DNA of 64,000 nt from Nitrospirota bacterium (lineage in GTDB: Bacteria; Nitrospirota; Thermodesulfovibrionia; Thermodesulfovibrionales; JdFR-85): contig JAYWMQ010000002.1 of assembly GCA_035873375.1 (NCBI GenBank), positions 1 to 64,000 on the forward strand, written 5' to 3'. The first letter of the stretch is position 1, and each line of letters begins with the position of its first letter. Below are positions 58,586-63,845 of this stretch, piece by piece. A program made the translations under genes and the position numbers. The notes under the pieces were generated by a model. The model had not been told where the DNA came from. It saw nothing but the letters and a program-made list of their open reading frames with translations, and did not search any database.

Positions 58586-58614
58586 TTGAAATAATGTCAC
58601 GTTCTCCATATAAT
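58586..58614 (+). promoter_or_regulatory. comM promoter, predicted leaderless start
   Basis: TTGAAA (58586-58591), exactly 17 bases, TATAAT (58609-58614). Only 7 bases separate the -10 box from the comM ATG at 58622, so transcription should start at or next to the A of the ATG. No Shine-Dalgarno lies upstream. Confidence 0.8.
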
Positions 58615-58621
58615 TAAAAAC

Positions 58622-60154
58622 ATGCTTTCCAGACTCCTGAGCGCTACTCTTATTGGTATCGAGGCACATCCTGTTGAGGTGGAAGTGGATATTACCTCAA
58701 AAGGGCTTCCTCATTTCTCCCTGGTTGGACTTCCCGATACAGCGGTCAAGGAGAGTCGGGACCGTGTGAGGGCAGCACTGAAGAACACGGGTTTTGTCTT
58801 TCCATTGAAACAGATTACTGTGAATCTTGCACCTGCTGACCTGAAAAAAGAAGGTTCCTCCTTTGATCTCTCCATTGCACTCGGGGTCCTTGCCTCCGAA
58901 GGAGTTTTTGCCTCAGAATCCCTGAAGGGCTACATGGTGACAGGGGAGCTCTCTCTTGACGGAAGGCTCAAACCCGTAAGGGGCGCCCTGTCAATGGCCA
59001 TAAAATCAAGGGATATGGGGCTTAAAGGGATTATCTTGCCGGAGGAGAATGCCCCGGAGGCTGCAGTGGTAGACGGGTTTCCAGCGTATGGAATGAGTAG
59101 TGTCACTGAGGTCATAGAATTTTTGAAGGGGGATATCTCTGTAGATCCATACTTGACAGACATTAAAGAAGTTTTGAATATAGCCTCGCAGTATGAGGAG
59201 GACTTTGCTGAGGTCAGGGGGCAGGAGCATGCAAAGAGGGCAACGGAGGTTGCTGCATCCGGAGGACATAACATTCTCATGATAGGGCCTCCCGGGTCAG
59301 GAAAGACCATGCTGGCAAAGCGCCTTCCGACCATACTTCCGGGGATGACGTTTGAAGAGGCACTCGGGGCTACCAGGATCCATAGTGTTGCCGGCACCCT
59401 TAACTCTGGACAGTCCCTGCTTGCGACCAGGCCCTTCAGGTCTCCTCACCATACCATATCAGACGTGGCCCTTATAGGCGGCGGGCAATTTCCAAGGCCT
59501 GGAGAGGTATCGCTTGCACATAACGGCATACTCTTTCTTGATGAACTGCCCGAGTTCAAGAGAAACGTACTTGAGGTCCTGAGGCAGCCACTCGAGAATG
59601 CAGAGGTGACCGTGTCAAGGGCTGCTGCCACTGTTACATATCCGGCAGGGTTTATGCTGGTTGCCGCCATGAACCCCTGTCCCTGCGGTTACATTGGGGA
59701 TGCAAAGCACCAGTGTACATGCACTCCCGGGCAGATACACAGGTACAGGACAAAGGTGTCGGGCCCGTTGCTTGATCGTATAGACATCCATATAGAGGTG
59801 CCTGCAGTTCATTATAAAGATCTGTCCTCCAGCCATAAGGAAGAGAGTTCTGCAGAGATAAGGAAGAGGGTTGTAAAGGCAAGGGAGATTCAGCAGGAAC
59901 GATTCAGGGAGGAGAGGATATACTGTAACGGACAGATGAAGACCAGGCATATCAAGAAATACTGTGTTGTGACGAAAGATGCACAGGATATACTGGAGGC
60001 CGCCATGCAGAGACTCGGCCTCAGTGCAAGGGCATATTCGAGGATACTGAAGGTGTCACGCAGTATTGCGGACCTTGAAGGGAGCAGTGATATCCATTCT
60101 CACCATATATCAGAGGCCATCCAGTACAGGACACTGGATAGAGGGGTATACTGA
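58622..60154 (+). CDS. comM: YifB/ComM family Mg-chelatase-like AAA+ ATPase
   Basis: 510 residues. N-terminal Lon-protease-like fold domain ([34 protein letters not shown]), AAA+ domain ([15 protein letters not shown] Walker [12 protein letters not shown] Walker B), a zinc-like insertion [15 protein letters not shown] and the C-terminal MgChlI_C domain ([21 protein letters not shown]). A hexameric helicase that helps branch migration in natural transformation. It has a consensus promoter with 7 bases to the ATG and probably makes a leaderless mRNA. Confidence 0.94.
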
Positions 60155-60317: not shown

Positions 60318-60346
60318 TTGACAAACCTAAAATTTGGGAATATAAT
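60318..60346 (+). promoter_or_regulatory. Perfect consensus promoter of the DUF6502 locus, leaderless geometry
   Basis: TTGACA (60318-60323), exactly 17 bases, TATAAT (60341-60346), then 7 bases to the ATG at 60354. The -35 box itself supplies an in-frame TTG that could be mistaken for a start codon. Confidence 0.88.
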
Positions 60347-60353
60347 ACCAAAT

Positions 60354-61154
60354 ATGGACAACGTAAAGCGGATAATAGCCTCAACACTGATAAAATTACT
60401 GAGGCCACTCATGCGTGTTCTTTTAAAAAACAACATTCCATATGGTACTTTTGCTGATATTGCCAAGTGGGTTTATGTTGACGTTGCCTCAGAGGACTTT
60501 GGTGTGCCGGGCAGAAAACAGACCATATCACGTATCTCCACCATTACCGGCCTCTCCCGCAAGGAAGTTAAGAAGATGAAAGAGATTGAGGCACCATATG
60601 ACCTGGGGGCTGCGGAGCGTTACAACCGGGCAGCCAGGGTGATAAGCGGATGGATTAAGGATCCCCGTTTTCTTGATGGCAGGGGAATGCCTGTTCAGCT
60701 TCCTTTTGAGGGCAATGAAAAAAGCTTTTCTCTCCTTGTCAGGGCTTACAGTGGGGATGTCCCCCCAAGGGCAATCCTTGATGAAATGCTCAGGGCCGGA
60801 GTTGTGGAGATGAACGACAGGAGAGTGAAATTATTAAACAGGGGTTATATAGTGAGAAAGGGAGAAGTGGAAAAATTCGGCATTATGGGCAGGGATGTCA
60901 GCGAGCTCATCTCCACTATACATCACAATATTGCAAGTGATCCCGAAGATGCATTTTTTCAGAGAAAGGTCTCGTATGACAATATTCCCGTTGAGATATA
61001 CCCTGAGGTCAGAAGCCGCATTTCAGATATGGCGGCTGAGTTTGTCGAGTCAATGGACAGGGTGATCTCACAGTACGACAGGGATATGAATCCATCTGTT
61101 CAGGGTACAGGACGTAAAAAGTTAGGGTTAGGCGCATTTTATTTTGAAGAATAA
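60354..61154 (+). CDS. DUF6502-type protein
   Basis: 266 residues from ATG 60354. A soluble, helix-rich protein: VLLKNNIPYGTFADIAKWVYVDVA, then a winged-helix-like stretch QTISRISTITGLSRKEVKKM and, later, a second compact domain (RAYSGDVPPRAILDEMLRAGVV). The helix-turn-helix-like TGLSRKEV suggests DNA binding, but this is inference. Homologues, as I recall, sit beside DUF5666 proteins, as here. It has the best promoter in the window and overlaps or nearly touches the next gene. Role unknown; regulator of the two lipoproteins is a fair guess. Confidence 0.7.
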   Translation: MDNVKRIIASTLIKLLRPLMRVLLKNNIPYGTFADIAKWVYVDVASEDFGVPGRKQTISRISTITGLSRKEVKKMKEIEAPYDLGAAERYNRAARVISGWIKDPRFLDGRGMPVQLPFEGNEKSFSLLVRAYSGDVPPRAILDEMLRAGVVEMNDRRVKLLNRGYIVRKGEVEKFGIMGRDVSELISTIHHNIASDPEDAFFQRKVSYDNIPVEIYPEVRSRISDMAAEFVESMDRVISQYDRDMNPSVQGTGRKKLGLGAFYFEE

Positions 61155-61173
61155 AAACGGAGGGTTTTTCGGC

Positions 61174-62607
61174 ATGTTAAACATTGGATTGAAATCGGGC
61201 TGGAAGAGTTTGATGGTTGTTGTCCTGGCGCTGGGGCTGCTGGGCTCATGCAGCGGTGGCAGCGGAGGTGATATTGCCGGAGGCGGAATCAGTGGAACAG
61301 GGGTTTACAACGGTGTCATCACAGGGTTCGGCAGTGTCTTTGTCAACGGGGTGGAGTTCAATACTTCCGGGGCTGCAATAACCGCCAATGATGCCGTTGT
61401 TACGGAGGCCGACCTTGATGTGGGTATGAAGGTAAGGGTCGAGGCGAGCGGGACCAGTGCCCTGAACATCGCATTTGATCCAGAGGTGATAGGGCCGGTT
61501 CAGGCTATCGATACGGTGAATGATCAGATTGTTGTCATGGGACAGACTGTGCTGTTCCAGGGAACTACGATACTCAAGGGTTTCGGCAGCATCCTCGACC
61601 TTGTTGCAGGTGATACCGTGGTCGTGAGCGGCTTCTTTGACGCTGCCGGCAATATCAGGGCTGTCTTTATAGAACTGAAGCCCCTGACTTCAGGTGAGGA
61701 GGTCAAGGGTCTGGTATCAGCCTTTGATGCCGTTTCCCGCACGTTTGCGATAAACGGACTGTTCGTTGACTACAGTGGCGTGACTGATCCGCCGCAGTTT
61801 CAGAACGGTGATTTCGTTGAAGTCAAGGGTACCCTGTCAGCAGGTACGCTTGTTGCGTCATCTGTCGAAGTGGAGGACCCTGTTGGCGCAGCGCTTCCCG
61901 GCAATGAGATGGCTGTTGAGGGGATCGTGACATCACGCACCTCTGTGAACGATTTCGAGGTTAACGGCCTGCGGGTCTATACCAATGACTCGACAGTGTA
62001 TGAAAACGGCCTGCAGGGTGATGTAGCCGTCAATGTGCTGCTGGAGGTGGAGGGGACGGTTAACGATGCTGGTGTTCTCCTGGCTGAGAAGGTCGAGTTC
62101 CTCTCCCATGAGGAGACAGAAATCGGTATTGAAGGGGCCGTGGAGCAGGTGGACCCTCAGAACTCTACGGTCACTGTCTTTGGCATTGAGATTACCGTTA
62201 ACAGCAGTACTATATTCAACGACGAATCGGACCGGTCCTTTTCTTTTGATGGCATCCGGGTCGACGACCTCATCGAGGTCGATGGTTTTATTGACGATGG
62301 AGGCCGGGTCGTTGCGGTAAAGGTGGAGAGGATGGATCCGTCAGAGCCGGAGTACGGTCTGAGCGGGCCAGTCGATGCCGGGTCAGAGTCTGAGTCCACG
62401 GCGTCTTTCTCGATACTCGGAGTTAGTGTCGATGTCAGCGGTTCGGGAGTCACTTTTGAGGATGAGAACGACACATCTATTTTGATAAGCGATTTTTTTG
62501 TCTTGATCGATGACTCGAAGGACCCCGGAGATATTGTTGAGGTTAGCGGTGTCTATCAGAGTGGCGTTCTTGTTGCCGATGAGGTGGAGATAGAGAGGAT
62601 AAACTGA
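61174..62607 (+). CDS. Lipoprotein with about six DUF5666-like repeats
   Basis: 477 residues from ATG 61174 (GGAGGG upstream). Lipoprotein signal ending LGLLGSC, then a Gly/Ser spacer. The mature protein is a string of about six units of 60-70 residues, each with a GxV-start, an xVxGxxVxV strand, DLxxGDxVEVxG and a final AxxVE strand. Examples: GPVQAIDTVNDQIVVMGQTV, GDFVEVKGTLSAGTLVASSV, VDDLIEVDGFIDDGGRVVAV, GDIVEVSGVYQSGVLVADEV. Such units look like small OB-like beta barrels. Very acidic. Surface or periplasmic; ligand unknown. Repeats are divergent, so they are old. Confidence 0.75.
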   Translation: MLNIGLKSGWKSLMVVVLALGLLGSCSGGSGGDIAGGGISGTGVYNGVITGFGSVFVNGVEFNTSGAAITANDAVVTEADLDVGMKVRVEASGTSALNIAFDPEVIGPVQAIDTVNDQIVVMGQTVLFQGTTILKGFGSILDLVAGDTVVVSGFFDAAGNIRAVFIELKPLTSGEEVKGLVSAFDAVSRTFAINGLFVDYSGVTDPPQFQNGDFVEVKGTLSAGTLVASSVEVEDPVGAALPGNEMAVEGIVTSRTSVNDFEVNGLRVYTNDSTVYENGLQGDVAVNVLLEVEGTVNDAGVLLAEKVEFLSHEETEIGIEGAVEQVDPQNSTVTVFGIEITVNSSTIFNDESDRSFSFDGIRVDDLIEVDGFIDDGGRVVAVKVERMDPSEPEYGLSGPVDAGSESESTASFSILGVSVDVSGSGVTFEDENDTSILISDFFVLIDDSKDPGDIVEVSGVYQSGVLVADEVEIERIN

Positions 62608-62660
62608 CTTTGTCAGGTTACAGCAAAGAAGGATCATTTAATCGAAAGGAGGATAGAAAG

Positions 62661-63845
62661 ATGAAACGTTTAATGGTATCAAGGTTCAGGATGGTTGTTC
62701 TGGTAACGTTTTTGTTGGCCTTTGCAGGGTTCCTTTACTCGTGCGGAGGAGGCACTGAGACTGCCACGCGGACAGCCAGTGTCTACATTACCGATGATGT
62801 TACTGATGCTTATGATCAGGTCATTGTGACCATCTACAAGGTTGAGTTTGTGAGTGCAGTGGATAGTTCGGTAGTGACGGTCTTTGCGGCTCCCCAGGGT
62901 CTCACCTATGATCTTAGCGAGTTAAGCGGTGTGCTCGACAAGCTTGGAACACTGCCTGAGGGCAGCTACAGCAGTGTCCGTATCACCGTTGGTAAGGAGT
63001 TAATACTCGTTGACAATGCAGGCGTACAGGTATCTCCTAACCCCACCTTTGCTGAGAACGCATGGACCAACTGCAGTGCAGACGGCACATGTGTTATTGA
63101 CATCCCCGGGGCAGCCAATGTGGTGAGTACGGAGCGTGTGGTGATCGATTTCGACCTTAAGCAGTTCGTGTACGATCCTCTCACAAATACCGTGACGGCA
63201 AAGGTGGTGCTTGATGCCGACGGTTCCGACTACGACAACTACCAGGAGATAAAGGAAGACGACTATGAGCTTAAGGGGATTATCCAGGCCCTCACCCCCG
63301 GAGGGTTTGACCTGACCGTGTTAAAGGCAGAGGGCTTTATTCCTGACAGTAATTTAATTACCGTGTCAGCAGGGGATACTGTTCTGTTTACCTGTGATGA
63401 CGATGACGAGAGGGCGATATGCAGTATTTCGGACATCTCTGATCTGCAGGTCGGCATGAAGGTCGAGATAGACGGAACGTGGAACGGTACAGAGTTCGCA
63501 GCCACAAGGGTTGAGGTGGACGGTGACGATGATATCGTTGCAGCGGTATGTGATCTGCCTGACAGGAGTGTGACTGAATTCACAGGCCTGACTGTGCAGC
63601 CCGAGCTGGAGGCTGCGTCATACACCTTTGATTCTGATGTATACTCCTTAACGGTTTTAGGTGTGACCGTTCTCCTTACACAGGAGACGAGGATTGAGTA
63701 TGAAACAGCAGACACAGACCGGATTATATGTGCAGACCAGCTTCCTGTGACGGCCGGGGATATAGAGGTCGAGTATTACCAGGCACTGGACTCTTCAGGC
63801 GATTCAGTGAATGTTGCATACAAGGTTGAGTTTGAAGAAGATTAG
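62661..63845 (+). CDS. DUF4382 lipoprotein with C-terminal DUF5666-like units
   Basis: 394 residues from ATG 62661 (AAAGGAGG 8 bases upstream). Lipobox-like FLYSC. The N-terminal part (about 30-200) is DUF4382: ASVYITDDVTDAYDQVIVTI, VFAAPQGLTYDLSELSGVLD, LPEGSYSSVRITV. This is followed by two DUF5666-like units (YELKGIIQALTPGGFDLTV; LQVGMKVEIDGTWNG). Acidic and aspartate-rich. 53 bases after the previous gene, so co-transcribed. Probably part of the same envelope-exposed complex or polymer-binding set; no enzymatic motif seen. Confidence 0.75.
   Translation: MKRLMVSRFRMVVLVTFLLAFAGFLYSCGGGTETATRTASVYITDDVTDAYDQVIVTIYKVEFVSAVDSSVVTVFAAPQGLTYDLSELSGVLDKLGTLPEGSYSSVRITVGKELILVDNAGVQVSPNPTFAENAWTNCSADGTCVIDIPGAANVVSTERVVIDFDLKQFVYDPLTNTVTAKVVLDADGSDYDNYQEIKEDDYELKGIIQALTPGGFDLTVLKAEGFIPDSNLITVSAGDTVLFTCDDDDERAICSISDISDLQVGMKVEIDGTWNGTEFAATRVEVDGDDDIVAAVCDLPDRSVTEFTGLTVQPELEAASYTFDSDVYSLTVLGVTVLLTQETRIEYETADTDRIICADQLPVTAGDIEVEYYQALDSSGDSVNVAYKVEFEED

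Follow-up and report, generated by a model that had tools for sequence, protein, structure and literature searches.

Small autorepressors whose palindromic operator lies over the −10 box form a textbook class, and factors that bind between or over promoter elements can also activate transcription, as MerR-type regulators do. PCC3 is a porin-cytochrome c complex (He et al. 2017, PMC5566968) with a proposed role in extracellular electron transfer, a function that is unverified in the literature. No report of a PCC3 regulator was found in the portions of the PCC3 literature that were searched. DUF5666 is met only in tables in the parts of the literature searched, and no mention of DUF6502 was found in the literature searched. 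Here we analyze a locus in a 64,000-nucleotide stretch of Nitrospirota DNA (the window), in which genes for DUF6502, DUF5666 and DUF4382 proteins lie behind one promoter.

The Locus and Its Promoter

The features of the locus are as follows.

60318..60323, + strand: −35 box TTGACA (12/12 consensus together with the −10 box; kept upstream of DUF6502 in the family)
60333..60352: candidate DUF6502 operator, TTTGGGAATATAATACCAAA, an imperfect palindrome straddling the −10 box (upstream alignment, genome scan)
60341..60346, + strand: −10 box TATAAT, within the candidate operator (promoter scan)
60354..61154, + strand: DUF6502 protein, 266 aa (PF20112, E = 2.5e-82; start set by conservation)
61159..61163, + strand: ribosome-binding site GGAGG of the DUF5666 gene (sequence)
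61174..62607, + strand: lipoprotein with six tandem DUF5666 repeats, 477 aa (PF18914, E = 1.1e-52, five stretches)
62648..62652, + strand: ribosome-binding site GGAGG of the DUF4382 gene (sequence)
62661..63845, + strand: DUF4382 lipoprotein, 394 aa, with a C-terminal DUF5666 copy at ~63276−63515 (PF14321, E = 1.3e-9; PF18914, E = 1.7e-8)

The three family assignments, which an earlier note had made from the letters alone, all lie above the Pfam curated cut-offs. The DUF6502 gene scores 276.2 bits against PF20112 (cut-off 27; positions 4−263 of 268), the six-repeat lipoprotein scores 176.6 bits against PF18914 over five stretches, and the DUF4382 gene scores 38.8 bits against PF14321 (cut-off 25), its DUF5666 copy reaching 35.1 bits against PF18914. 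Of the six repeats counted in that note, five pass the Pfam threshold (61492−61674, 61705−61869, 61918−62097, 62131−62328 and 62365−62589); the sixth, N-terminal repeat is seen by eye and in searches with a home-made HMM. The DUF5666 and DUF4382 products have lipoprotein-type leaders (LLGSC and LYSC, respectively) and a pI of 4.05 each, and PF18914 is found in both genes, in keeping with their description as two acidic lipoproteins that share a small β unit. The pI of DUF6502 is 9.24. The genes are as tightly spaced on their common strand as had been described, with gaps of 19 and 53 nt, and no credible + strand terminator was found between them.

The promoter TTGACA-17-TATAAT (60318−60346) scores 12/12, the top of 12 matches in 6 kb, and is as perfect as the earlier note had claimed. 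The DUF6502 start codon proposed there does not stand, however: the TTG at 60318 coincides with the start of the −35 hexamer, and the real start is the ATG at 60354. Because this ATG lies only about 7 nt past TATAAT, the DUF6502 mRNA is probably leaderless, with the transcript starting at or beside the start codon. All relatives in the genus and family that carry DUF6502 keep both this promoter and the ATG after it, and the arrangement is therefore more than chance. The neighboring comM-like gene has TTGAAA-17-TATAAT from 58586 to 58614 followed by an ATG at 58622, and is probably a second leaderless start with the same geometry.

One could instead read the upstream stretch as coding, with an N-terminal extension initiated at the TTG and the palindrome as its by-product; the upstream frame is indeed open in many species and reads FGNIIPNM. 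Elsewhere, however, the palindrome is kept while the peptide changes (TGGGACTATATTCCCA, TGGGAATAAAATCCCA), and unrelated genes are preceded by the same palindrome. In L081, L154 and the alphaproteobacteria, moreover, the site lies farther upstream of the DUF6502 start codon, which argues that the palindrome is under no coding constraint. On these data, we give the coding reading almost no weight.

Conservation of the DUF6502−DUF5666 Pair

DUF6502 is found above its curated cut-off in 61 of 396 sampled Nitrospirota genomes. DUF5666 is present in 60 of these 61 genomes versus 68 of the 335 that are DUF6502-negative (Fisher p = 1e-33), and in the sole DUF6502-positive genome without a DUF5666 count (G003) the contig ends inside the DUF5666 gene. 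We examined 34 neighborhoods from many families of Nitrospirota and from five plasmids of Alphaproteobacteria. In 33 of them, DUF6502 is followed directly by the DUF5666 gene, often with a 4-nt overlap; in the last one, the record itself gives the next gene a DUF5666 annotation. DUF4382 is the third gene only in the window's family (f1) and in one genus (g77) of another family. The co-occurrence of three families, on which the earlier note had staked its case, therefore holds for DUF6502 with DUF5666 and extends to DUF4382 only in these two lineages.

The genomic surroundings of the operon differ among genera, which argues that the operon is a unit. Within the conserved pair, only DUF6502 is cytosolic. 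The seven neighborhoods listed show no further conserved cytosolic gene linked to the locus, and no DUF6502 relatives were found on viral contigs. Taken as an undescribed system, as the earlier note had regarded it, the locus is supported.

A Candidate Operator over the −10 Box

Alignment of the upstream regions gives the consensus TTTGGGAATATAAT(A/C)CCAAAT over the −10 box, followed in most Nitrospirota by an ATG within 1−3 nt. The center of the palindrome varies (ATATAA, CTATAT, ATAAAA, TTATAA) and is always AT-rich. When ~150 nt before each DUF6502 gene are searched, TGGGA-N5/6-TCCCA with at most one mismatch is found upstream of 52 of 64 distinct genes (39 perfect, 13 with one mismatch), where shuffles expect 0.38; the shuffle is the only clean control for this count, since some control ORFs come from loci picked for the site. 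The other 12 genes have no good upstream site, and several of them have one 1.8−2.6 kb downstream. In one Nitrospira clade (L064, ~10232; L140, L141, L147), a good operator is located 1.8 kb downstream of DUF6502, before a c-type cytochrome gene.

All five alphaproteobacterial loci contain exactly one perfect TGGGA-N5-TCCCA in ~16.7 kb, with 0.17 expected in all. Four of these sites are just upstream of DUF6502 and one is directly after DUF5666, namely that of Rhizobium etli (L060, 9889−9903), where the perfect site is just past the DUF5666 gene and not before DUF6502.

In the 2.67-Mb genome from which the window derives, 60333−60352 is the only site with at most one mismatch to TTTGGGA-N6-TCCCAAA. 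Its right arm departs from the palindrome at one position, as it does in all DUF6502-bearing members of the family examined. Sites with two mismatches show no enrichment over the control in this genome, and two of them, near L085 and L087, were rejected as further operators, both being inside apparent coding sequence. As the palindrome reaches the expected transcription start, it would act on DNA and not as an RNA hairpin. The operator over the −10 box, the leaderless start and the wider regulon described below are additions to the earlier note.

The Palindrome Is Enriched Where DUF6502 Is Present

A scan of the 396 Nitrospirota genomes for TTGGGA-N6-TCCCAA gives 64 sites versus 7 for the control in the 61 DUF6502-positive genomes, and about 45 versus about 45 in the 335 DUF6502-negative genomes (perfect 18-mer sites, counted by hand). 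The Fisher p value for the excess in DUF6502-positive genomes is 3e-8. Five DUF5666 clusters that lack DUF6502 contain no perfect site. DUF6502 and a conserved operator thus occur together across genomes, as expected of a site-specific DNA-binding regulator. Since the site precedes most DUF6502 genes and is enriched only where DUF6502 exists, DUF6502 is most likely an autorepressor. In DUF6502-free Nitrospira (L190−L194), another DUF5666 cluster is found, which lacks the operator. It encodes a DUF5666 lipoprotein together with a protein that has GPGSxNSG-like repeats, joined in most cases by a barrel-like protein.

The association with the operator agrees with one of the two roles suggested in the earlier note, a DNA-binding protein or an adaptor, and DUF6502, which is basic and cytoplasmic, is very probably a DNA-binding switch. 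Its profile gives no significant match to any known DNA-binding family, and nothing significant in a sequence search of the PDB. An AF2 model built from three near-identical sequences has a pLDDT of 51, and Foldseek returned no significant match for it. This low-confidence model contains helix pairs (58−65/69−79) and an E-H-H-E-E element (119−160), which are compatible with helix-turn-helix and winged-helix units; it is the logic of the operator together with this weak secondary-structure pattern that suggests a helix-turn-helix protein.

The absence of a recognizable DNA-binding family would also fit a different arrangement, in which another regulator binds the palindrome and DUF6502 is a co-occurring adaptor or modulator. 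Operator-like sites do remain in two Nitrospira genomes without DUF6502 (G168 and G243), upstream of a cytochrome-b gene and with 2 and 1 mismatches, respectively, although these may represent recent DUF6502 losses. The site is, however, enriched only in DUF6502 genomes, and in two phyla it lies beside DUF6502 itself; the seven neighborhoods offer no alternative cytosolic candidate, and the low-confidence DUF6502 model could accommodate DNA-binding units. An adaptor role is therefore improbable, and we continue with DUF6502 as the factor that would bind the site.

The Proposed Regulon Includes PCC3-Type Modules in Relatives

The DUF6502-bearing relatives share a regulon. In families f28 and f35, all 11 extra sites (11/11) point at a gene and have, inside the palindrome, a −10-like hexamer that TTGACA precedes by exactly 17 nt. 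Among the targets are lipoproteins of the DUF5666 (L129) and DUF4382 (L124) families, proteins with ankyrin repeats (L125, L127), an ATP-grasp protein (L122) and a protein of outer-membrane type (L132). In L120, L121, L123 and L126, the target is a ~300-aa membrane protein with a multihaem cytochrome gene directly after it. The site is found on the same membrane protein and multihaem cytochrome module in Nitrospira (L133, L134, L136, L137, L139). In L121 and L123 (G104, G067), a 404−413 aa protein that by eye resembles the sigma-70 type is encoded on the + strand, divergent from the operator-controlled cytochrome-b gene.

The operator-linked membrane protein of these relatives has invariant W97/H101/H115 and W267/H271/H285 (alignment A5), that is, two WX3HX13H motifs, and the adjoining genes, which are partly truncated, encode 21−28 CxxCH. 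The modules therefore place a two-WX3HX13H inner-membrane protein beside multihaem cytochromes, the arrangement by which PCC3 is recognized. Of these modules, each pairing an inner-membrane cytochrome b with multihaem cytochromes, 17 were examined in DUF6502-positive genomes, and all 17 have an upstream site with at most one mismatch. In three Nitrospira clusters, DUF6502−DUF5666 lies ~12−16 kb from the cytochrome-b module, and the interval contains an FAD/4Fe-4S oxidoreductase, ccm genes, a ~770-aa TPR/barrel-like protein and a second multihaem cytochrome. On this basis, we tentatively suggest that DUF6502 may be the founder of a new transcription-factor family, spanning at least two phyla, that is dedicated to the regulation of PCC3-type conduits and of cooperating DUF5666/DUF4382 envelope lipoproteins.

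The promoters of the regulon also bear on the sign of regulation. At many Nitrospira sites the −35 box is weak (TTGCCT, TTGCGC, TTGCTT), which could call for activation, and the MerR-type regulators provide a precedent for a protein acting in this position; DUF6502 might accordingly be an activator or a dual regulator, such as a ligand-dependent DNA distorter, and not a plain repressor. We consider this unlikely, since the promoters of the window and of f28/f35 are near consensus with an optimal 17-nt spacing and need no activator, and since the operator extends over the −10 box as far as the start.

The window's own genome (G000) gives no match to the PCC3 inner-membrane protein with two WX3HX13H motifs, whereas 92 other genomes matched. 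With this protein absent and a single operator in the genome, it is quite possible that the operon in the window is what is left of a PCC3-linked regulon, regulating only itself and no longer tied to electron transfer, a reading that is compatible with DUF6502 as an autorepressor. However, all three genes are intact and are conserved across the genus and family in differing genomic contexts, which points to selection for the operon's own function.

The DUF5666 Repeat Is Predicted to Be an OB-Fold

Structure prediction of the repeats, which the earlier note had proposed as a check, was carried out for one DUF5666 repeat with the 13 repeats of the window locus and its near relative L028 as input. 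The model has a pLDDT of 96.7, with strands at 2−14, 17−20, 23−26, 32−34, 46−53 and 59−66, and an OB-fold is predicted for the repeat with high confidence. On this prediction, the lipoprotein would be a string of six OB domains. Comparison of the model with PilY2 (PA4555, PDB 3tdq) gives a TM score of 0.75 and a Z of 8.4, with Z of 9.8 for PriB and 8.5 for CusF; VIA-align returns many OB-folds with tied Z, so that the nearest functional relative cannot be named from these scores. At the sequence level, the relation to PilY2 (E = 0.03) and to CcmE (E = 0.96) is not significant, and a PDB sequence search with the DUF5666 profile gave nothing significant. A CcmE relationship was rejected on that E value, an hhalign probability of 1.9% (with a shallow CcmE alignment) and the presence of one His in the whole lipoprotein.

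Proposed Model and Comparison with Known Systems

We think it likely that the locus is an autoregulated envelope operon, in which DUF6502 is a cytoplasmic factor that would bind TTGGGA-N6-TCCCAA (60333−60352 in the window) and repress its own operon. With the −10 box inside the palindrome, which extends to the expected start of transcription, RNA polymerase would be blocked by DUF6502 bound at this site. Once a signal released DUF6502 from its own operon, the cell would make the probably leaderless mRNA of DUF6502 together with both lipoproteins encoded downstream. These would display OB-fold domains at the cell envelope, with six consecutive domains in the first lipoprotein. The sequence itself shows that the genes are conserved, where the site lies, its enrichment in DUF6502 genomes, the shared regulon and the predicted OB-fold of a repeat, whereas the DNA binding, the repression, the ligand and the role of the lipoproteins are inferred. 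Since related lineages have PCC3-type conduits under the same site, the signal and the task of the lipoproteins probably concern the handling of redox state, metals or haem at the envelope. In this proposal, three domains of unknown function become parts of a circuit that can be tested, with its regulator named and its operator and regulon defined. The operator on PCC3 modules offers a way to learn when bacteria turn on these proposed electron wires, and the locus itself is a clear example of an autoregulated promoter that is conserved and probably leaderless.

The lipoproteins share the predicted OB-fold of a single DUF5666 repeat with PilY2 and the periplasmic CusF and CcmE, but differ from them in having six tandem repeats on a lipoprotein, with no significant sequence relation. 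The domain family is common to DUF5666 proteins generally (PF18914), many of which lack DUF6502 and the operator and occur in a different gene context. PCC3 (PMC5566968) is related through the genes that the DUF6502 site precedes in Nitrospirota, namely those for a ~300-aa two-WX3HX13H inner-membrane protein and multihaem cytochromes, and the Nitrospira cluster also holds the ~770-aa TPR/barrel-like protein and ccm genes; the window operon contains none of these, and the inner-membrane protein is absent from the window's genome. Finally, the locus resembles the small autorepressors in its palindrome over the −10 box and in having the regulator as first gene, but DUF6502 matches no described regulator family. 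The type of circuit is classical, while the regulator family, the operator and the link to PCC3 appear to be undescribed in the literature searched.
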